From: Hippasteria phrygiana | Taxonomy: Eukaryota > Echinodermata > Asteroidea > Valvatida > Goniasteridae | Assembly: GCA_037893225.1 (NCBI GenBank) | Contig: JAZGUH010000199.1 | Coordinates: 682,001 to 746,000 of the forward strand | Direction of reading: 5' to 3' | Length of the DNA: 64,000 nt | Shown here: positions 21,301 to 61,900 of the stretch, piece by piece | Layout of the letters: each line of letters starts with the position of its first letter | How positions within the stretch are numbered: the first letter of the stretch is position 1 | Program-made: the position numbers and the translations under genes | Notes under the pieces: generated by a model | The model's input: the letters and a program-made list of their open reading frames with translations, nothing else | Databases searched by the model: none | What the model was told of the DNA's origin: nothing

Positions 21301-24300
21301 AGAAAACTTGTTTCCAAACATTTGGTGTTAGTTTTTAGGTGGGTCTTGCAGTAGTCTTGGTTTAAAGACGTCCTTAGCGCGGTGCGACGTACAGCGCGCA
21401 CAGCAGCGCCCTCTAGCTACACACAAACACACGCCAAGGCCAAATCGCTAAGAACGTCTTGGGCATTTCGCAAGGGAGCGCGCGCGACCTGCTTATGCAT
21501 AATTTAACAGGCGGGTCAAATGAATAATCGCGCTTGCGCACTGGAGGAAACTCATGTTTAAGTAATAACTTACTAGTCAGTTAACGTTCTGAGCAGAGTG
21601 ATTCTGGACTAGTAAACAGAATTGAGAAATCTTCGGATTGTTCCAAAAATGTGATCTGGAATATCAGACGTTATCTCTGCCAATTTCAGTCCCAGATGTT
21701 CAGCACGATGTAACTGATCAACGTCCAGAGCTTTCAATGGCACGACGACAATAATCAGCGCTTTCTCCTGTTTGCATTCGGTTACTTCGTTCATGGAGGT
21801 AGGAAACACCTCCATGCTTCGTTCAAGAAATCTAAGACTAATGGAGCAGCTTGAAAAATTACACTCTTGCCAAATCCCGTTGGTAAATTAACAAACAAAT
21901 CATGGCCACGTACAAATTGATGAATGGCACTGATCTGATGACTTTTTAGCTTTCCAAAGCCAAGTTTTTTTGCTGTAAAATCGATCGCTTGGTCCATCCA
22001 CGCGGTCAGACATTTTTTCCAACAAACAACAAATGGCTTGGTACTGCGCTGCACGTTCACACGTACGTACACGTAAACCCGACGTGAGTACAGAAACTAG
22101 ACTAGTGAGTGTGGGCTATTTACATGCGATAATGCAGCTACGTCACACGCGCATGCAAATGCCACACAGTTCTGCTCGCGATTTCGCGAGCAGAACTTGC
22201 GAAATTCCCAAGACGGTCTTAGCGATTTGGCCTTGGCGTGTGTGTGTGTAGCGAGAGGGCGCTGTCGGCCGGCCGTGCGCGCTATACGTCGCACCGCTGA
22301 GGACGTCTTGGAACCAAGACTAGTCTTGCAGCGGATATCGCCACAGTTGGCCTCTGTCTAGGGTACTCTGTCTACCCTATCTCATGACCAAGCCAGTGGC
22401 CTGTCTTAATGAGGACCTTGAGAGCATCGGCAAACGGGGAAAGTGACTGGCTTGTTTCATTCAACCAAAAGATCCAAACCCTTCTGCTTTCCTTATTTGC
22501 TCATGAATTCCTCACCATTTGCAGGAACATAACACTGAGAGAAAGACTGAGGTTGCGGGTAACACCATGTGAAATAAATCTCTTCTAGGAAGATGTGTGG
22601 TTCTGAAAAGAACCGGGATGAGTGTGTAACTCGACGTTTCGGACAGTGTGCTCTGTCCATCCTCAGGAGTGTGAGTGTGAGTGATTTGATGCACGAACAG
22701 AACTGGTTCCCTACTTTGATTGCGTAAAGTGAATACGGGATGCATGGGAATCAAGGAAATCGGCAATCTCTGTGGAACTAATCTTGACCAAGTCATCGAT
22801 TGATTGCATTTTGTTCTGCACGCACATTGTGTGTACGCACCAGTGGTACGCAACGTACACATAAATTGTGACCGTTCCTCACAGATTGGAATTTACCAGT
22901 TGCGTGTACATAGTATGTAAGTCTAGTGTCCGCTGCATACATATGCAGGACACGGCTTATGCCCCGCGCTATGTGTAAATCGAATCGTTGTACACGTGTA
23001 TTGCGGCATACCGCATGAAGGTAGGAAAGTGCTGTATGTCCTACGGCAAAGCAAAGCTTCAAATCGTATTTGAACATAACACTACGCATCTGCTACGACT
23101 GGACATCACATCAAATCTTAGCTGGGACATATATTTCCAACAAGAGCCTCTCAGCGCCTTGCCTGCTTGTATCGTGCACAACGGTACCTTACTCCATCTG
23201 CCAATCTTCTCCACCTATATCAGGCAGCCATAGGACCTGTCATTTAATACTGCGGCCGGTGCTCCAGCTTGCTATTTGTCCCTCTTTGATAAGATTCAGC
23301 AGGGTGTTTCAAATCTGGTTGGTCAGGGCCTGGCATCTTCCCTGCAACCCCTTCATGTCCGACGCTCTGTTGCTTCATTGAGCCTCTTTTATCGATACTA
23401 TCATGGAAGGTGTTCCAGTGTCCTTTCATCATTCAGGGATGCCAGACTTCCGGCAATTGCCGGAATTCCGGCTTTTTCATATTTTTGGAAAAAACCTCCG
23501 GCCTTCGGCATTTGTGGGCCGGAACGAGAATATTTATACAAATTACCGTAGCGCTTTCCTACCTTTAAGCCGCAATACCCATGTACAACAATTCGATTTA
23601 CGCAGGGCACTGTATCTCGTTGGAAATATAAATCGAGCACTCCGTAAAAATCAAGCAGAAGGCGGCGTCCGGAAATTGGGCAAAGTTTATTGTACATACG
23701 TATATATGCACATGGAATTGAAGCGTGGCCCAGATTCCGGACACACAATTTTTTTCCGGCCCTGCAGCCAAGACCAACTGGTATCCCTGATAGATACCTT
23801 CTTTCCCTGTGATTTATGTCTTCTCTTGTCTTTTGTAAGCCCACGCCTTGGGTGGCCTTGTGTTGAGCGATACCCTTAAATTTTGTTTTGTTTTAAATGT
23901 ACCATTGAGCCTTTTCGGTAGCCTAAATTTTCTCTGAGAATAGAACGTGTCAAAGTGAACTTCTCGTGTCTGTGTTTTCTTGAAGGGCTGCCAGTTCGAC
24001 GGTGCTGTATTTTGCCCAAACGTCACTGGAATCACTGCCTCAGGAAATTCAGCAGGTTAGCAAGTGTGAATTTTTGTTGGGCTCTGCATTCAATTTCTTT
24101 CTTTTTGCCTTTTTGAAATACAGTGGAACGTCGCTATAACGAACATCGCGGGATCCACTGATTTTGTTCGGTATATCGATCGTTCGGTATAGCGATTTTC
24201 AGCCGCCGGTTACTTAAGGACGACTTTAAACCTGTGCCGGCCATTGAATTATGTAATTACATGTTCATACTTTCTAAGCTTAACGAATTCTAAAGCAACC

Positions 24301-27300
24301 GAATTCTAAAGCAACAGTTCGCATTTCCCTTCTATTTCTTAGGGAAATAATAGCCAATCTTCAACATAAAACTGCGGCCGTTTGGGAATTACAAACAGCC
24401 CAAATGCCCACTACATTTTTTTCAATCTGTTGTCTTTTTTTTTTTTTTTTTACAACAATGATCGGTAAGTTTTGCACACAAAATTTGGGAGCCAAGGATG
24501 GTGTTCGGTATAGCGGTGTTCGGTAAGGCGGCGTTCCACTGTACTGCATTATGTAGTTTTTTCTATTTTCATGTAGAGTTTTTTGTTTTCTACTGTTTCA
24601 AGATTTGAAATCAAACCCATTTTTGCATTCATTTGTTTATTTTGCTGATATTAACCCGGCTTTTTCGCTACTAATTCTTGAAAGTCTTTGTGGTCAAGAC
24701 AACTTAACACGTTGACTGCCGACTACGAGTATATTCGTAGTGAACCAAACGCTATTGTTAGGGTAATTGAATACTCTGGCATCTCCGAAGATACGCTGCT
24801 GGCAATATGAGTACATCAATGTATGGAATGGTTGTGATCGATAGAGACAGCTTGAAAGCACCTCATCAGTATGGACGCATGGCGCTGTATGTCCAGATTG
24901 CACAATGGCAATGTGGTGGCGCCCTATAAATTATGGCTGGCAGTCAACGTGTTAATATATAAATGCATTTGAACAAAATATTTTGAATTGAAAGAATTTG
25001 ATGTACTGCATGAGTTTAAGATTGTTCTCGTGCATCGTGCTATAACAGGTGAAGCGAGCAAGGACCCTGGGGTTGCTATGGGAATGGTTGTCGAGAAAGA
25101 AGGTGATTATTTTTTGTGTGGTTTTTTTTTTTTCATGGGAGGCAAATCCTTAATGTGCGTGGAGACTACATACAACTGTGAATATTTAGGTCTGATCAAT
25201 GAGCCAAGTGTATTTTTGTCAGATTGTGCATGTCCGTTTCAGAATTTTTATTTTTGTCCAATTGTAAATAAAACATTTTGCATTTATGTGGCAGTGCTAT
25301 CAAAATCCGGAATTGGTTGGAAAATCATTTTGAGTCGCCTCACAAATCACTAGAAACAGTATTCATTCGGCTTTCCATTGCTTCCTAGGCAAGCATGTTG
25401 CTATTTTTCACGATAAGCCAGTTCGGTATTTCAACTGCGCATGTGCACAATGACATTTTATCCCGAGTGACCCGTGTGGCTTAACGCACACGTCTGAACG
25501 CAAAAAGGTGGTCGCACAGCGCGCACGTGTTAAATTCAATCAGAATGGGCGTTTGCGTAACATGGCGTGACATAACGTCAGCAATTTTATCCCGCATAAC
25601 CCTTGACCTTTGAGATACCGAACTGACTTATTATCATGCCGTACAACAATTAGACGAATTTCACATTGATGAAAATAGCACCGATCTGTGCACTTCGTGT
25701 TTGAAAGTAAAGCAGGTCATTAAGTTGATTTGAAAATCATTCTGTGAAATAATGGAACATCATGCCGATTAAAAATGAAGTTGGACGATTTTTGTCGTGA
25801 TGAACTGGTACATTGACCATGCCGACTGTGCGCTATGCAGTCATTTGCCTTGATTTATGCATGCATGAATGGATTTGTTTAGCACTGTGTTTGTTGAGCA
25901 CTGAGAGCCTTGCTTTTAACCCGAAAGTGCATAGAAAGTGCATGTGAAATTCGCCTATACCAGCATAACAACCCTTTTTCGTTTAAAGACCTAGTAGAAC
26001 GCTTTTTAAAAATGTGAAATTATTGTCTCAGTCTAACATATGTTAATATAGAGAGCAATACACACAAAAATATGTATTTTCCTTTTTAATTTAGGAAAAC
26101 TTGACTCTCGTCCGTTAATTAATAATGATGGATAGAAAATGACAATATTTAGCAGGAATTTGGTTTCTTGTAATTCATAATTCAGATACTAATCTCTTTT
26201 AGAGAATTAAACTTTGGTTATAGTAGGTCTTTAAGAATTTTTGGTTAGAAGTGGGTTCCAAGCGAGATATTTGGAACCCTCTCCAGTGTATAAAATTTGA
26301 GATTGTTTTTGTTTCACACTGTTAATTCCTACAGTATAAAATGTCTGTCAATCTTCGCGCAAGAATGCGGTGGAGCAACAGATAGTCCAGTGTTGTAGTA
26401 AGAACTGTTACGTTCAAAAACAGTTTCTTCGTAATTTATTATTGGGAGAAATCCATTAAAGTGAAGTTTTGAGTCGGAGCACTGACAAAGCAGCTTTAAA
26501 TACAAAGTTTACAAATATAACATGGTTTGAGGGCGGATAGCAGGGTTGTATTGGAGTCCATCAAAAGTCCCTGCAAGTCCATCACAAACCCTCCAGTCCT
26601 AATCCCAATCACAAGCTATTGAAATGAGCTTTGACAAAGGCATTCCTTTGTCACTGTTCATCCAGTTACTTGTGACCAGCTTTATGAAAGGACTTCTGAC
26701 TGGGCTTGCAAAATGACTTGTGAAAGGACTTGCAGGGACTCCAATACAACTCTGGCGGATAGTCAATACTACCTCCCCGAGGTATTGCAAGTTGACGGAC
26801 TGGTTCCCGAGGCGAAGCCGAGGGAACTAGTTTGTCAACTTCCAATACCGAGGCGAGGAAATATTGACTATCCATCCGAAATAGACCATGTTATATTTGT
26901 TTTACAATACCTCATACATATTCAGTTGCCATTACAATTTCAGGAGCAAGGGGAGAGGCAATACTATAACCCTGATGACATGGATTAACATTCAAATGCG
27001 CCGGGCCATCTTTTCATGTGTATGAAGGGCGATGTTCACGCGTGCGTACTACACCCATGTGACAGTTCCACGATTACTTCATAAAAAGTGCATGTACGTA
27101 GACTGTCGCACGGGTAACCCATGTGTTAGTCTACTATGCATGCATATTTGCCCTGTGTGTGAATACTTGTGTGCGTGCTTGGTAAACAGCAAAAATAGCG
27201 GCAGGCACGTGATGGTGAATGGACCAGTGAGGATTCGGCTCTCGATCATGAATATGTATGAGGTATAGTAATAGATATTCTCTCGTTTGAGAGAATCGTC

Positions 27301-40200: not shown

Positions 40201-40706
40201 GGTGGTTCTGGACAAGTGCTTACCATTTGATTTTGTAACAAGTTTAGTTTAGAAATGTTTGTGTTTTCTGTGTTGGATGTTCTTGGCAGGGTGTACGTGT
40301 ATGGTCACTCATGTACATGTTCATTTCTACTTCATGTTAACTTTTATGGTTTTTGCTGTTAAAAAAATCTTGAACTAACAGGTTGTGCCACATGTTTTGT
40401 TATTAAGATCAAGGATGGTTGTTTTTTTCCCCAAGATTTTGCCAGTGGTGTTTCCTACCTCCATGGTAGCTCGAAAATTCTAGCTCTTGGCTCATGACAT
40501 GTGAGATCTCACATGTCATGAGCCAAGAGCTAGAATTTTCGAGCTACCTCCATGGTGTTCCTGACCGTGACCGATATTGGTGGGGGGGGGGGGGTTATTA
40601 AAGTTAAATCTTTCCCATTTACTACCGCTACCACGTGCCACACATATTTTACCGGATATTTCTCGGCAGTTTCTTCATCCAGATCAGATATTCCAATCAA
40701 AACCAT
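37059..40706 (-). CDS. TMEM141: Transmembrane protein 141, four exons, complete
   Basis: On the minus strand: exon 1 40706-40653, exon 2 38943-38877, exon 3 38205-38119, exon 4 37267-37059. 417 bases, 138 residues, all phases consistent (0, 1, 1). Reads MVLIGISDLDEETAEKYP, GIHEYGQCQARAFIKGMFAF, GGAAGLTASYAIRHRYPKFP, then NIVFIAGGAILTSYVVSSIA and SKQCQKLW. This follows vertebrate TMEM141 (MV.LGLS..D...A.KHPGLGEYA.CQ..AF.KG, then a Y-rich P loop and a second hydrophobic segment ending in C..LW). Two membrane segments are expected. The protein is about 30 residues longer at the C-terminus than the human one. Its function is poorly known. The frame is open upstream of the ATG to 40763, so a longer N-terminus is possible. 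Confidence 0.92.
37303..37669. mobile_element. TIR element in TMEM141 intron 3
   Basis: Ends GGAGTGGTTAATCTGTGGTC and ACACAGATTAACCACTCC; family of 35284-35583. It starts about 35 bases from exon 4. Confidence 0.75.
38119..38205 (-). CDS. TMEM141: TMEM141 exon 3
   Basis: Minus-strand acceptor ACCATGGACAG, donor GTAAGT. Encodes GGAAGLTASYAIRHRYPKFP and PTYNIVFIA, phase 1 to phase 1. Confidence 0.92.
38620..38775. mobile_element. Diverged pogo/Tigger-like remnant
   Basis: Right end GGTGTTCGACTGT and repeated TTATAACAAGG/CTTATAACGAGG words resemble Tigger termini; the left end is poorly preserved. In TMEM141 intron 2. Confidence 0.45.
38877..38943 (-). CDS. TMEM141: TMEM141 exon 2
   Basis: Minus-strand acceptor CACATTTCAG, donor GTACAT. 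GIHEYGQCQARAFIKGMFAF then FA, phase 0 to phase 1. Confidence 0.92.
39251..39438 (+). mobile_element. tRNA-derived SINE, best-preserved copy
   Basis: The body includes CTGACTAGCGCCCACCCGAA and GACAATTTGGGAGACCGCCA, then a tRNA-like 3' part with B box GGTTCGAATCC (39400-39410). Other copies: 18496-19047, 32409-32597, 50340-50800. Combined with the 50 kb copy, the tRNA part reads AGCTCATATCAGTTGGTAGA then GCGCCGG. The tRNA-like domain follows the unique body, the reverse of the usual SINE order. Confidence 0.7.
39905..39930. repeat. 26-bp perfect palindrome
   Basis: GAAATCCAGCTCT followed by its exact complement; no flanking duplication seen. Confidence 0.8.
40070..40224. mobile_element. Hairpin MITE, GTAAGCACTTATCC family
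   Basis: TIRs GTAAGCACTTATCCAGAACC and GGTTCTGGACAAGTGCTTAC. GCCTTGTGCCTATTCAATAA is tandemly doubled inside. In TMEM141 intron 1. Confidence 0.75.
40465..40548. mobile_element. 84-bp perfect, spacerless palindrome
   Basis: Left arm from GGTAGCTCGAAAATTC to CATGTGAGA at 40506; right arm is its exact complement. ACCTCCATGGT is repeated directly at 40457-40467 and 40546-40556, consistent with a 78-bp insert (40468-40545) and an 11-bp duplication. About 105 bases inside TMEM141 intron 1. Confidence 0.85.
40653..40706 (-). CDS. TMEM141: TMEM141 exon 1
   Basis: Minus-strand ATG at 40706, 18 codons MVLIGISDLDEETAEKYP, donor GTAAAA. It aligns with the human N-terminus and joins exon 2 in phase 0. 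A GCCATGG context surrounds the ATG. Confidence 0.85.
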
Positions 40707-47911: not shown

Positions 47912-47948
47912 CATGGAGGAAGGAACATTCTGTGTTCCTTCCTCCATG
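47912..47948. mobile_element. Ultra-short palindromic insertion, copy 2 (37 bp)
   Basis: Arms CATGGAGGAAGGAACA with complement around TTCTG. It is absent from the duplicate near 44065. No 7-bp duplication; the MITE at 47958 begins 9 bases away and may have disturbed it. Confidence 0.7.
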
Positions 47949-47957
47949 GACCTTATC

Positions 47958-48095
47958 GCAAATACCGCCTGGTTGAGACGTCACAATGGTCACAAGGGAT
48001 TGTGGGAAGGAAATGGGAGCGATTTTGGTGCGCGTTTCTTTCTCACGTCCTAGTAAGTAGTAACCATTGTGAGGTCTCATCCAGGCGGTATTTGC
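47958..48095. mobile_element. MITE with 35-bp TIRs
   Basis: GCAAATACCGCCTGGTTGAG at the left and CTCATCCAGGCGGTATTTGC at the right; arms extend over ACAATGGT with about four mismatches. Absent from the 44 kb duplicate. Confidence 0.75.
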
Positions 48096-53113: not shown

Positions 53114-53146
53114 CACTGATCTCTGTTGTGTAGATAGAGATCAGTG
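53114..53146. mobile_element. 33-bp hairpin insertion with 8-bp duplication
   Basis: Arms CACTGATCTCT and AGAGATCAGTG around an 11-base loop; TGCAGAAC repeated exactly at 53106-53113 and 53147-53154. Confidence 0.75.
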
Positions 53147-53439: not shown

Positions 53440-54325
53440 CGTGCAGGCTGCCTGCACTGTACTGTTTGCGGTGCCACTCTGAATGTTCGGATGATGTCAC
53501 TGCTTCGGGTTTTCCCCTCACGTTTCCGCAACTACACATTATGGTAGAATTTGTACTCCCACACCTAAATGATTACATTTGTGGTATTTCTGGGCCCTTC
53601 AGTTCCTATTTCGTTTGAAGTTCGTGGTTTGGCTGCTTTTTGGGGTCGAACATACTCCAATTTGCACTGCGCATGGAGGACTGCCAAGACAACATTTTCT
53701 GCTTCGCCAGACATAAATCAGCTTACAAAAACATCCGCGACAGACATTGTAAGAATAAGATTACTTTAATACCCCCTACCAAAATCACTCAGGAACAGCA
53801 AATCTTGGAAAATAACTATCCATCTGTGTTCAAAATTGTATAAACACTTGGCACAACGTTTAAATTTGAGAATTTTGTTGGAAAATTTTCGTGAAATATT
53901 AGGGGAAGAAAGTTCGTGTTTTCTGTGTTAGATCATGGAGGAAGGAATATAATTCCTTCCTCCATGGTTAGATATTCTTGGCATAGTGCACAGTGTAACT
54001 CAAAGTGTTCACATACATGTTGATTAATGCTTTATTTTTTACAGATTTTGCTGACATAAATCTTGAAATAACTGGTTGTGCCACATGTTTAGACAGTTGT
54101 TATCAAGGAGGGTTGGTTATTTTGTAAGATTTTGCTGTTCCTGATCCAGTCTTAAAATAGGAAAGTGGTCGTGTTTATCGTGTGGTCCACACGAAAATTC
54201 CAAAATCATGTAGTTGCTGGGAGGAAAGTCATAGAAAAGAAATCACAGGCCCCGTTTATGTTTTGGCGGGAAAACAATGAATCTCATTCTCATCTCAATT
54301 TTCCATGGAGATTCCCATAGACCAA
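53440..54325 (+). repeat. Segmental duplicate of 45590-46408
   Basis: Same anchors as at 45.6-46.4 kb. Between them 53755-54150 is a dispersed repeat with AACCAACC-type ends, also seen at 39990-40460. Confidence 0.8.
53934..53966. mobile_element. Ultra-short palindromic insertion, copy 3 (33 bp)
   Basis: Arms CATGGAGGAAGGAAT with complement around ATA. GTTAGAT is repeated exactly at 53927-53933 and 53967-53973. The paralog at 40261-40290 (TTTTCTGTGTTGGATGTTCT) lacks it. Confidence 0.85.
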
Positions 54326-55958: not shown

Positions 55959-58900
55959 CAAAACAGGATCGAGCTTCGTGTGTGCGGCTTCCTCGATGGT
56001 GTGCGTGTGTGATCGCTTCGGAACGACTGCAGATTTTTGTCATTTTTTTCCCGCAAATTGGACCCGTTTCAGGCGAAAATTGACTTGGCGCAAGCAAGGT
56101 GAGGATGTAAATGCGGCATATTATTATTTTTGGGGGCAGCCATGAAGTAATTCACGGCGAAAAATGTAGAAACGTGTTGCATGGGAATGACGTTCTTATT
56201 CTTGCTGTACTAGCCTATGGGAAAAATCGGCGTCTTCCTATGGGGTTCCTGTCGGAACCCCATAGTTCTAGGGGTAGGCTCGCCTATGAAAAAAACTCCA
56301 CTAGCTCAAAGTTTTGTATACATCCAGCTCCTTGTCATTATTAAACCGTCATAAACCAGGCGTACAAAAAGACCATTAATTACATTTCTCAACATGTGTA
56401 TACAGGGTGAACCAAACAAAAAAACGAAACCGAGAAAAAAGGGTTACTTTTCCAAAAATATACATGTCATGTATATATCAAGCATTGCGTCATAAAGTTG
56501 GAGCTACGACCTTTCTTTTAGTACCAATATCGCAAGTCTATAAACAGTCACGGATGGCTGAGTATCATTGTCCTCAACACCATAAACAAAGTTCGGAAAT
56601 GGACAAGTATCAGGTGTTATGGTTGAACTTGCAATATGTAGGCAATGGATGTCTGCTGGAAAACAGGAAAATGACACACACACACAAGTGTGTAAATACC
56701 GGCAATCGCGGACCTCCCATTGTTCATCTTTTGTTTTAATCTAACTTTGTTCGGAAGGCCTCCCATATGTTTCGTACACGATTTTCAATCGCGGACGTTC
56801 GTTCAAACGTGGACCCTTTGTCTACGCCCGAATTCTTTTGTCCTAGGTCCACAATTGCCGGTATATACATACTCACACACACCCAGCTCTGTTTCACATA
56901 CGCAGTGTGGACATTCCTTTGTATTCGTGTAGTTAAGAATTCTCTGCCAAAATCCTCATTTTTCTCACATCCAGAAAAAAATTTCAACCCAATTTTTGAT
57001 AGTGGCTCCCTGAAGTAATTATCTTTCTTCATTATGATCTGTTTGTCATTTCAATTTTACTGGTGGATCTCGATCAGGAAAGTTCGCTCTGAATGCATCT
57101 TGGGTTGCCTGCAAACTTTCTGTTTGGTGGAACGTTTTGACGACGAAAACCCTCTGTTCAACTGGCATCCAACCAATGAAGCAACCAGTTTACCAAACAA
57201 GCAAAGAAACACCCAACAAATTACCCCAAAAACAGTCTGCCGACCGACCAACTAACAAACAAACAATTAGCCAACCAAAACCCCATGCGACTAATCAACA
57301 AAAAAACACAAAAAACCAAACAAACCAAGAAACACCTACAAACAAACAGACACCACAATAACCAGTCCACAAACCAACAAACCAAGCAACAAACAATCAT
57401 ACTTTAACTTGCACCCTAACCCAAACAACCAAACGACTGTCCAACCAAAAACAAACCAACCAACCAACCAACCAACCAACCAACCATCCGACAGACCAAC
57501 CAACTGACCGACAGACCCTACCGACTGACCGACAGACCTACCGACAGACCTACAGAATGACCGATGGACAGACCATGCAACCAAACAACCGACCGACCAA
57601 CCAACAAACTTTCCAACACATCAACCAACGCATCAACCAACCGACCAACTATAGTTTTTCCATTTTACCATCAGCTTTTCGTACTAAATGTGTCACTTCC
57701 ACCACGTGCACCTACAGCTTTTAATCCGCAACTTGACTACCGAAGCTTCCCCAACGGAACCTGTAAGCCTGGTCTTTATCATTCAAAGTTATTTCCGAAC
57801 GTAATTATAACTTTTATAACATTTTGTGGATGCGTTATGCATTTATTGCGCGTGACGTCACGGTGTGTAGTCCGATCGTTGCACTTGGTACATGTTTATA
57901 CATGAGTACGTGGTATTTACACAATACATGTTGAATTAACTTTGTCTCTGTATCCCATCATGTAAGCCTCATTTCAATTCCAAATCTGGGTTTAGTATGG
58001 ATGACTACACGCGATGACGTCAAGGCTAACAGCGCGCCGCCGACGGCAGCAGGGGGAGAACTTGTAGTAAGCGCGAAATTTGAATATTTAATTAGCATCT
58101 TTCTCTCGTCCGTTAATTAATAATGATGGATAGAAAATTACAACATTTAGCACGAATTTGGTTTCTTGTAATTTATAATCAAGATACTAATCTTTTCTAG
58201 AGAATTAAACTTTGGTTATAGCATGGAGGAAGGAGTCCTTCCTCCATGGTTATAGTAGGTCTTTAAGTTGTAGGGTTTTAATCAAATTGTTATTTTTATT
58301 TAAGTAGATTTAATTTACTTCCCTTTGATTTCAGTGGTTTTGGAGATTTTCTTTTAAAGGAAAATAAAGTCCAAGAACCATTTGGTTGATAGTCTGGTTC
58401 CAGCAGCAAATATCGTGACGTTGAATACCATTACGCCGGGGAACTAGGCAGTTCCATAACGAGGGCTGCCGTAACAATAGCCACTGCGTAAAAACAAACT
58501 GTACATATGGCACAGAACTAAATTATTTCTCAGAGAAATTTCAAAATAAACAAAATAATTTTTTTTTTTTATTTAGGCCTACTATAATATTTATTTGTTG
58601 CAATTTTATTCATACAGATATAATAAAAAACAGATTTTTTTTTCAAAATCATATTACATTACATTACCTTTACATTTACATTTCAATACATTTATTTTCT
58701 CTTAATGGCAAGAAAGAATACAAGTTAGAATTTAGATATGAAGGCCGGTAGAGGTGGCAACTCCTGAAAAGCATAGCTTGTAGTTGGCATGCCAAACAGA
58801 CAAACAAACAGACAAACAAACAGACGAACTATTTGATACACAACTAAGTACGTTTCTAAGCATTAAAGTTATGAGTAATGGGCTACGAATAAGATCACCA

Positions 58901-61900
58901 TAAAAATTTCGAGGGGCAAAGACACATAGATTATAAGATACAATTTAAGTTTGCATTTAAAAATATTATATGACCTTGAACATCTAAGAGAGAATGGTAA
59001 ATTATTCCATAGTTTAGGTCCGGAGTATTTAATATTGTATTGGAAGGCGGATGTTCTATGTTGTGGTAAGTGGAGATGCAAGTTAGTAGACACACGAGTA
59101 TTATAGTTTAGTTGCAGTTAAGTACAAACATACTTGAATAGGAACTGGGGCAGTACATTATTTATATACTTATACACAAATAATGCTTGTTGGTATTTGT
59201 TTAGGTTTGTGATGTTTAAATATTTTAACTCACGTAAAAGCGGTTGGCTGTGAGCCCTGATTGGTGAATTGGTAATAATTCGAACAACTTTCTTCGGCAA
59301 CATTGTTAGTTTATTTAAATTTGTACGGAATGTATTCCCCCAAACAATGTTACAGTAAAAATAGGGAAGTATTAATGAACTGTAGAGAGATTTTAGTACC
59401 TCAAAAGGAATTGTGCTTTAGTCTGTTGATTACACCAATACTCTTGGAAACTTTGCATACAATCTCATCAATGTGATATTTCCAAGTCAGTTTGTCGTCA
59501 ATGATAACACCTAAAAATCTAAACTTGTTGACTTTCTTTTACCGATGTAGTATCTAATAAAATATTTAGGTTTGTTGATTTATTGTGCCTTTTCCTATTT
59601 ATACTGAAGATCATATAATTACATTTAGCTAAGTTAATGAACAAACAGTTAGCTTTTAACCAATTACAGATGCTGACGAGTTCATTGTTGATGATATTAT
59701 AGAGGGAAATCAAATCTTTGTTACAGTAGAATAAACTAGTATCATCTGCATATAATATGAATTTTAACAATTTAGACGTATTGGAAATATCATTATAGAT
59801 TAAAAAGAGCAAAGGTCCCAGCAAAGAGCCCTGTGGTACTCCGCATGAGATGCGTTTTAAATCAGACAGGCCATTATTAAAAGTTGTACACTGATAACGA
59901 TTATGCAAATAACTCGCAAACCAGTCATGGGCAATCCCGCGGATACCATAGACTTGCATGTATTGGCCGGTCTCATCACAATAACTAAATGACATTGTAC
60001 AAATGTATTCCCTGATTTATAAAAATCACAAAATCATCACTAAAACATGTAAGGCCCGTCATAATTACTATTTATCCATTTACTTATTCCTTTTATTGTC
60101 TCTTCATTTTGTCATCTTTGTGAAGTTTTTTCTTCATCAGTGAAAATCCCGCTCGCATTTTACACCCCGGTGCTGCACTTCTCGTATGGATTCACTGTAG
60201 CCGCAAGCATGCGTTTACCTATCAAATGCTAGGGGCGCCCTTCCCCATAGTCGAAAATAATGACGTCATAGCGTTTCATCGGGCGCTGTACAAAAAGATA
60301 CCCGGTACCAGTGTCAGATCTTCCCCTTCTACAATCTTTATACCCAGCACGATATGAGGAAGAGGGGTACCCCCCTTTTTGTCCCTATACCCTATACACT
60401 CTCCAGACTATTGTTACCTAACACATCCCCCCTAGACTTCTGAAAAGAATTCCTGAGATTCCGGGAACACAATGACCAACACAAAAGGGGGGGGGGGTTC
60501 GCTCTGCCCCATATCGTGCATCATATGACAATCTTTGCACGCTTGAAAGCAGCCACATCGACAGCTGGGGATCAAGTTCGATCAAGGACTATAGTTAACC
60601 ATAGTTCGACTAACCCTGATCGAACGCACGCTAGTCGACGATGGTTGGACTAGTCTAGTCGACGATTCGTGACCAGCCTACCGAGGTTGGTCGCATCGCT
60701 GGTTACCAATAGCCGTTTTAATAGCACAGTGCAGAGAGGACCAGTTATCGGAAAAATGGCGGAAAAAACGTAAATATTCAGCAGCAGTGAACGATCATTT
60801 TTTGTTACTTTGTCTTTCTTTGAACATGTTGAAATAATGCACACAACTTGTGACATTGTTGATATACTGAGCAAATATCGTCCGTCTCGCTTTCATCTAT
60901 GAACTCGTCCAAAAACGTAAACAAACTAGCCACCGCCATTTTCTCATGGTCGCGTTGACATGACAATACTAGCATGAATAGTTCGACTAGAGGCATTCCA
61001 TAGAGTTTCTATATAACTCTATGAGGCATTCGCACTTCAACTTCAGTGCTCATACGTCACGAACCAACCACTGGTTAACCATTGGTCCTTGATCGAACTT
61101 GCTCTACTAGCTGGTAGCGAGTTCCAAATTGGGATTGTCTGAAACATATGGAGGTAGGATTCCTACCTCCATGATGTATATTTGTAGGGAGTCTATATAG
61201 TTCTAGGGGTAGTACTAGTAGGAAGTCCACCGTTTTGGACCGTACATATATCTGAACCCATGCAAAATTAGGGGTCTTCAAACAATGAGTTATTCAAACA
61301 ATTAGTATTTTGAGCCGTCCAAAACACAACAAAAGTGGGCGATTGTGTAGTGTAGAGCCCATCTTTAGTTTTGATCAAATTAGAATCAAGGGTATTTTTT
61401 TCTTGTTTCAAAATTACTTTTTAAATTTTTTGTTCAATTACCTAAAGCAGACTTCTCTTAATTCTATCGACATATATTTTTGTAATTTTGAACAGTTTAT
61501 CACGGTAGAAAATGTGCGAATCGAAGCGGTTTTGCATGTTTACTGTGCATCGCGGTGATCACCATCTTTATTTTTGCGTTGCGTTTTGTCATCTTTATCG
61601 TCGCTTTACCCCAGAATTTCCCTCAAAAACTAAAACCCTGCCTTTTATCTACGACAAACCTGTTGGTTTGTAATGTCGCTAACTAGTTTGGCAATTCCAA
61701 TAACTTAAAGTGGATTTTTGTTCCCATACTTATAGGGAACAGGGCCCCACACTACACAATCGCCAAAAAGTAAAGTATTATAAAGACAAAAGGTTTATCG
61801 AAACATTTTTCACAATATAATCTGAACCAAAGAAAACGCCTCAAAACGCATTCATGTGTAGACAGATTAGACAATCGATAACACGATGCTATCGATAATA

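Follow-up and report, generated by a model that had tools for sequence, protein, structure and literature searches.

Here we report that a starfish genome carries a large family of short, near-palindromic insertions, which are probably the excision footprints (scars) of one or more DNA transposons similar to those of the P superfamily. The family was followed up from a window of 64 kb, by which we mean the whole stretch of DNA that was analysed; the assembly from which the window was taken comprises 944 Mb in 1285 contigs. The window contains six open reading frames of at least 150 amino acids, two of which carry reverse-transcriptase domains, and scans of the window with Rfam and for tRNAs (the latter on bacterial settings) gave no matches. 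For the motif CATGGAGG, 14 occurrences were counted in the window, compared with 1.76 expected, and none of 100 shuffles reached 14. A whole-genome search of the kind proposed in an earlier note on this DNA found the pattern CATGGAGG-N(4-30)-CCTCCATG (20-46 bp) 4702 times per strand versus 4 times in a reversed control. The palindrome family is real, present genome-wide and well above chance.

All five palindromes that the earlier note had described in the window (at 21792, 47912, 53934, 58222 and 61148) were recovered at their positions, as were the exact 7-bp flanking duplications at three of them; features are given here without strand. At 58222-58248, the scar CATGGAGGAAGGAGTCCTTCCTCCATG is built of 13 nt of terminus, 1 nt and another 13 nt of terminus, and lies between two 7-bp copies of GTTATAG (58215-58221 and 58249-58255). 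A 33-bp scar with the variant terminus CATGGAGGAAGGAATAT... (53934-53966) is flanked by two 7-bp copies of GTTAGAT (53927-53933 and 53967-53973). The third scar with a duplication, CATGGAGGTAGGAAACACCTCCATG at 21792-21816, has the variant terminus TAGGAAACAC, is flanked by 7-bp copies of CTTCGTT (21785-21791 and 21817-21823) and lies within a larger repeat. Because it recurs with identical flanks at four other loci (L009, L010, L015 and L017), these copies represent a single insertion that was carried along by the larger repeat. The remaining palindromes are one of 37 bp without a duplication (47912-47948), which has arms of 16 and 17 nt and 4 nt of filler, and a degraded copy (61148-61173), in which the outer C is missing and the duplication is not clear.

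Empty paralogous sites had been claimed for the 58.2-kb and 53.9-kb copies, and both proved genuine, each holding one copy of the target: a single GTTATAG at 26217-26223 for the former, and for the latter a single GTTGGAT at 40272-40278 in a paralogue without the scar (40261-40290). The 47.9-kb copy is indeed missing from its duplicate, the same point being uninterrupted in the 43.8-kb paralogue (judged by eye). On its right side, this palindrome adjoins a 147-bp fold-back repeat (47949-48095), and both sit at one point of the paralogous sequence (by eye); related copies of the fold-back repeat were observed at L022, L031, L056, L058, L073 and L081. One repeat position was found in three states, namely empty (40.2 kb), with the 33-bp scar (53.9 kb) and with a different 27-bp scar (L043, approximately 94-134), and the two different scars indicate that the same target was struck at least twice.

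Two other insertions were observed in the window. The first is an 80-bp palindrome, TAGCTCG...CGAGCTA (40467-40546), which has inserted into CCTCCATGG and carries a 9-bp duplicate of it on each side; it is a different fold-back element, and its host looks like a one-ended CATGGAGG scar. The second is a 33-bp inverted-repeat insertion, CACTGATCTCTGTTGTGTAGATAGAGATCAGTG (53114-53146), with the 8-bp duplication TGCAGAAC, and perhaps represents a third such family.

Target duplications were tabulated for 55 palindromes, a non-random sample made up of the first sites among the matches listed. Five with repeated flanks were dropped to leave 50 unique sites; they include the window scar at 53934, whose paralogue L043 has another insert at this target. 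One outcome that the earlier note had named as fatal to its reading, a majority of copies without 7-bp duplications, was not seen in this sample: an exact 7-bp duplication flanks 37 of the 50 unique sites and one with a single mismatch flanks seven more (44 of 50 together). The longest exact flanking repeat was 7 bp at the 37 sites, 6 bp at one and none (<3 bp) at 12. A larger set of 59 unique sites (from 73 rows), which includes 30 loci picked by their left-side motif GTNNNAN, had exact duplications of 7 bp in 46 cases and of 6 bp in one, and none of 5, 8 or 9 bp; 2000 shuffles of the right flanks of these 59 sites yielded a maximum of 5, versus the 46 observed. In six of the 59 the duplication is missing even with one mismatch allowed.

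The 37 exact duplications have G (24) and T (30) at positions 1-2 and A (30) and C (21) at positions 6-7, with a consensus of about GTTNAAC, so that a palindromic GT...AC motif is present as in the P superfamily. The symmetrised empty target is approximately TTAGTTNAACTAA and is weakest at the A and T beside the duplication (30/74). The insertions are products of transposition, as the 7-bp duplications at most sampled sites, the empty paralogues and the palindromic motif of the target show.

Each insert joins a prefix of a terminus to a second prefix in reverse complement. The best-sampled terminus reads CATGGAGGAAGGAACAC(T/A)AAC; other versions (TAGGAAACAC, AAGAAAACAC, AATAAAACAC, AAGGATATA and TATTAAAA) behave likewise and suggest that there were several related parents. 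For the best-sampled terminus, which is one among the CATGGAGG termini, arms were found to extend to 21 nt at most; the limit of 17 nt that was expected from Drosophila was dropped accordingly. Scars with a left arm of at least 17 nt numbered 69 (from 100 listed of 167 matches, repeats removed by hand). In 15 of them the left arm reaches 21 nt, and the right arms range from 3 to 21 nt, with the full length in only four. At the joint, the arms overlap by 1-2 nt in 32 of these scars, meet bluntly in 15 and are separated by filler or unmatched bases in 22. Microhomology was seen in 13 of 33 joints versus 28% under a blunt-join null, a slight excess. The 22nd base after a full 21-nt arm, scored at 42 distinct places (drawn from the 100 rows listed among 465 matches), was T at 19, C at 10, A at 8 and G at 5, and at 25 of the 42 places a stretch of 6 nt or more of the other end follows within 22 nt. 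The longest joints among the matches listed are 21 + 21 nt (contigs C206 and C56) and 20 + 2 + 21 nt (L079).

Scar length is limited as well. The pattern CATGGAGG-N(31-60)-CCTCCATG (47-76 bp) gave 256 matches genome-wide against 4 in the control, compared with the 4702 at 20-46 bp. Among the 50 places listed of these 256, about 24 consist of two scars or of one scar next to a further end, in many cases with a single 7-bp target copy between them; 19 belong to a single 72-bp repeat, and seven fall into neither group. Scar lengths therefore stop near 45 bp. It is therefore most improbable that the palindromes are extreme internal-deletion derivatives, or solo end pairs, which would stem from interrupted gap repair instead of end joining after excision. 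Interrupted gap repair of P elements does give internally deleted copies with both ends, and at low resolution the anatomy would be identical, but such deletions would end anywhere, with arms past 21 nt and a continuum of sizes, whereas the observed arms stop at 21 nt and the scars near 45 bp.

Scars that lie in pairs, some 7 bp from each other and with a common target copy, were observed at G000 C10:1090113, C44:834756, C45:1775868 and other places, and two scars with overlapping duplications lie at L017 1001-1057. Adjacent scars that have a target copy in common indicate repeated visits to one target.

Eight scars are asymmetric, keeping both exact target copies while one end has been chewed to 2-6 nt (L016, L021, L033, L052, L064, L071, L072 and L073). 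They were kept from 10 rows among 60, and five of the eight come from loci picked for a long left end, while L016, L021 and L033 were met incidentally. The two rows set aside were a 27-bp reading of a symmetric scar at L021 and a 48-bp row at L047 without a right arm, possibly due to chance. The joint ...GGAACACATG is common to L016 and L071 at different targets, as is expected if microhomology repeats. A TSD-CATG-TSD class, which would be expected from P-type repair, was only weakly seen, with five CATG matches, two of them in satellite and one tandem-like; TCAT also gave four.

The earlier note had taken the palindromes to be among the smallest mobile units. Their origin by transposition stands, whereas a self-moving unit is contradicted by the diversity of the inserts, 56 of which are distinct among the 59 unique sites, by the eight asymmetric scars and by the nested 21-nt prefixes. 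Together, the nested prefixes of the 21-nt terminus, the end-joining joints and the one-sided loss point to a larger element whose excision left these footprints. A minimal 42-bp unit, made up of two termini of 21 nt each and mobilised in trans, with central deletions as its shorter forms, is accordingly quite improbable. Perfect 21 + 21 palindromes do occur at two or more places, long palindromes tend to lose their centres, and the 44 single ends in 283 kb revealed no larger parent; yet such a unit is at odds with the different inserts at 56 of 59 sites, with the rarity of full-length right arms (four of 69), with the retention of both target copies in asymmetric scars and with a spectrum of joints like that measured for P-element repair. 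Palindromes of 18-20 bp would also leave hardly any space to bind and pair two ends.

Similar observations set the scars apart from two classes of known sequences. Miniature inverted-repeat elements (MITEs) resemble them in their inverted ends, target duplications and lack of coding capacity, but MITE copies have internal sequence in common, whereas the sampled scars have none and are shorter than 46 bp. A MITE or an autonomous micro-transposon would present one sequence across unrelated sites and both ends intact in each copy; the inserts are instead nearly all distinct, and eight are asymmetric. Internal eliminated sequences of the Paramecium type are bounded by TA and removed in the soma, whereas the scars are flanked by 7-bp duplications of the GTTNAAC type.

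In the excision-footprint reading, a transposase would have inserted the full element at a 7-bp target, which became duplicated. In a later excision, the 3' ends would be cut flush with the target, while the cuts at the 5' ends would fall some 21 nt into the element, as the arm limit suggests, so that 21-nt 3' tails of the terminal repeat would remain on both donor flanks. The cell would then trim these tails and join them with microhomology of 0-2 nt or a short filler. Two arms of at most 21 nt each, with a target copy on either side, are the predicted product, a near palindrome of 18-45 bp. Since scars are inherited and some are copied inside larger repeats, they would accumulate while the element itself is rare or extinct. 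The 5' cut inside the terminus with its long 3' tail, the repair pathway and the existence of a full parent are predicted here from the sequences of the scars.

These steps closely parallel what is described for Drosophila P elements. P transposase cuts the 5' ends 17 nt inside the element and thereby produces 17-nt 3' tails (PMC7776569), and the tabulated P{wa} joints contain acccagac and up to 17 nt of CATGATGAAATAACATA per side (PMC2895639 Table 1), with the microhomologies (AT), (TA) and (CAT) and templated filler (PMC2895639). The starfish scars have the same arrangement of target copies around two terminal prefixes and the same microhomology, blunt, templated-filler and one-sided chewed joints; the scar CATGGAGGAAGGAACATG at L073 is the counterpart of the Drosophila class CATGATGAAATAA(CAT)G (PMC2895639). 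They differ in tail length and target duplication, which are 17 nt and 8 bp in Drosophila but about 21 nt and 7 bp in the starfish (PMC2895639), and in that the Drosophila joints come from one engineered site, whereas the starfish scars are spread over thousands of sites within a single genome. Galileo, also of the P superfamily, has 7-bp duplications and a palindromic target motif of the GTANTAC type (PMC4168063), but its terminal repeats are long and its full copies numerous, and the available excerpts of that source mention no comparable scar field. The Stowaway footprints of Triticeae (PMC1925063) are likewise inherited marks of element loss at natural sites, but they comprise a few bp beside TA, as against the 18-45-bp palindromes described here.

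The earlier note had also suggested that an autonomous transposon with the same start of its terminal inverted repeats might be found, but none turned up among the 44 single ends or at three P-type transposase loci. The 44 ends in 283 kb have no common in-register sequence beyond about 21 nt, a few pairs of them align to 24-32 nt at 87-96%, and no parent element was present among the single ends listed. Nor was there an intact parent with these ends in the parts of the genome examined. An apparently full MITE of 481 bp at L080 was rejected as the parent, its inside being a separate repeat of about 437 bp that is nested in a scar. For this inner repeat (approximately 126-563), 44 matches were obtained among the best 40 of 1099 candidates scored, most of them spanning positions 19-456 of the query; the repeat has at least 40 matches, mostly 97-100% identical.

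The transposase that marks the P superfamily has RNase H, a GTP-binding insertion and HTH, and the P-type transposase domain PF21787 had 86 matches in the host genome and was found in none of 14 control genomes. Three P-type open reading frames were read: those of 760 and 668 amino acids carry all four P-transposase domains, and the third (645 amino acids) carries two, one of them below the cut-off. At their loci, which are three of the 86 places, no CATGGAGG pair was present within the 8 kb each of L081 and L082 or the 5 kb of L087. The one copy in L081, CATGGAGGAATAAAACAC at L081:7849, about 3 kb from the P-type reading frame, was rejected as an element end because its copies match on both sides, which places it within a larger shared segment. 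L081 (G000 C412:679001-687000) belongs to a near-identical family of P-type transposases with the 668-amino-acid reading frame, which occupies about 11 places with long common flanks and is arranged in contig C412 in repeated units of about 3 kb.

The parent may have diverged too far, be absent from the assembly, be rare or have died out. Rarity would be compatible with a cut-and-paste element at low copy number, since each excision would leave one neutral scar and the scars would add up. That the scars are footprints of a superfamily other than P, with CA-TG ends and 7-8-bp duplications, is improbable. None of the P-type transposases examined was tied to a parent with these ends, and hAT elements also give 8-bp duplications, but hAT excision leaves altered flank ends and not about 20 nt per terminus. 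Furthermore, the target motif and the CAT start match P, Galileo and Pdre2, and the 17-nt tails of P are called atypically long in the excerpts available (PMC7776569).

A second family looks like the CATGGAGG scar family. It is represented in the window by the scar CATAGAGTTTCTATATAACTCTATG (60999-61023), which lies between the 8-bp duplications AGGCATTC (60991-60998 and 61024-61031), and the pattern CATAGAGTT-N(3-30)-AACTCTATG gave 64 matches genome-wide versus 4 in the reversed control. At the window site and six others, the 8-bp duplication was exact in four of seven cases; L093 has one mismatch at 8 bp, L090 (by eye) has one at 7 bp, and at L092 there is a plain palindrome of greater length. 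The terminus of this family was set by eye, and only 5 of 25 distinct inserts extend to the proposed arm end (CATAGAGTTATATAGAAAGAC or a similar sequence), at 21 nt or, with an extra TA, at 23 nt; these lengths are the suggested arm limit. Zebrafish Pdre2 and THAP9 have CATA... ends and 8-bp duplications (PMC10983969), like this family with its CATAGAGTT start, but they differ in having another terminus and full copies, according to the excerpts available.

Inherited excision footprints of P-like transposons are a kind of structure that is already known. The literature searched, as judged from titles and the openings of abstracts, offers no precedent for the scale of the present scar field, for the 21-nt limit or for the absence of visible parents; it gave no account of such a scar field, and the full-text matches to the terminus string look like primers (among the matches listed). 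A bolder and rather unlikely extension of the footprint reading is a hit-and-run lineage, in which related P-like families (CATGGAGG plus a variable 13 nt; CATAGAGTT...) would leave their sites almost without exception, cutting about 21 nt inside and depositing thousands of scars while virtually no element persists. Near-obligatory re-excision, episomal life or host-driven removal could each lead to such a lineage, and its cut of about 21 nt would exceed the 17-nt stagger of Drosophila P.

Repeat annotation may take excision scars for miniature transposons. If the excision-footprint reading is true, each scar naturally documents a single excision together with the joint made in its repair. The scars would then reveal the position of the transposase cut (21 nt) and the history of visits to individual sites, and thousands of germline joints would reveal the end-joining habits of the host without a surviving element.
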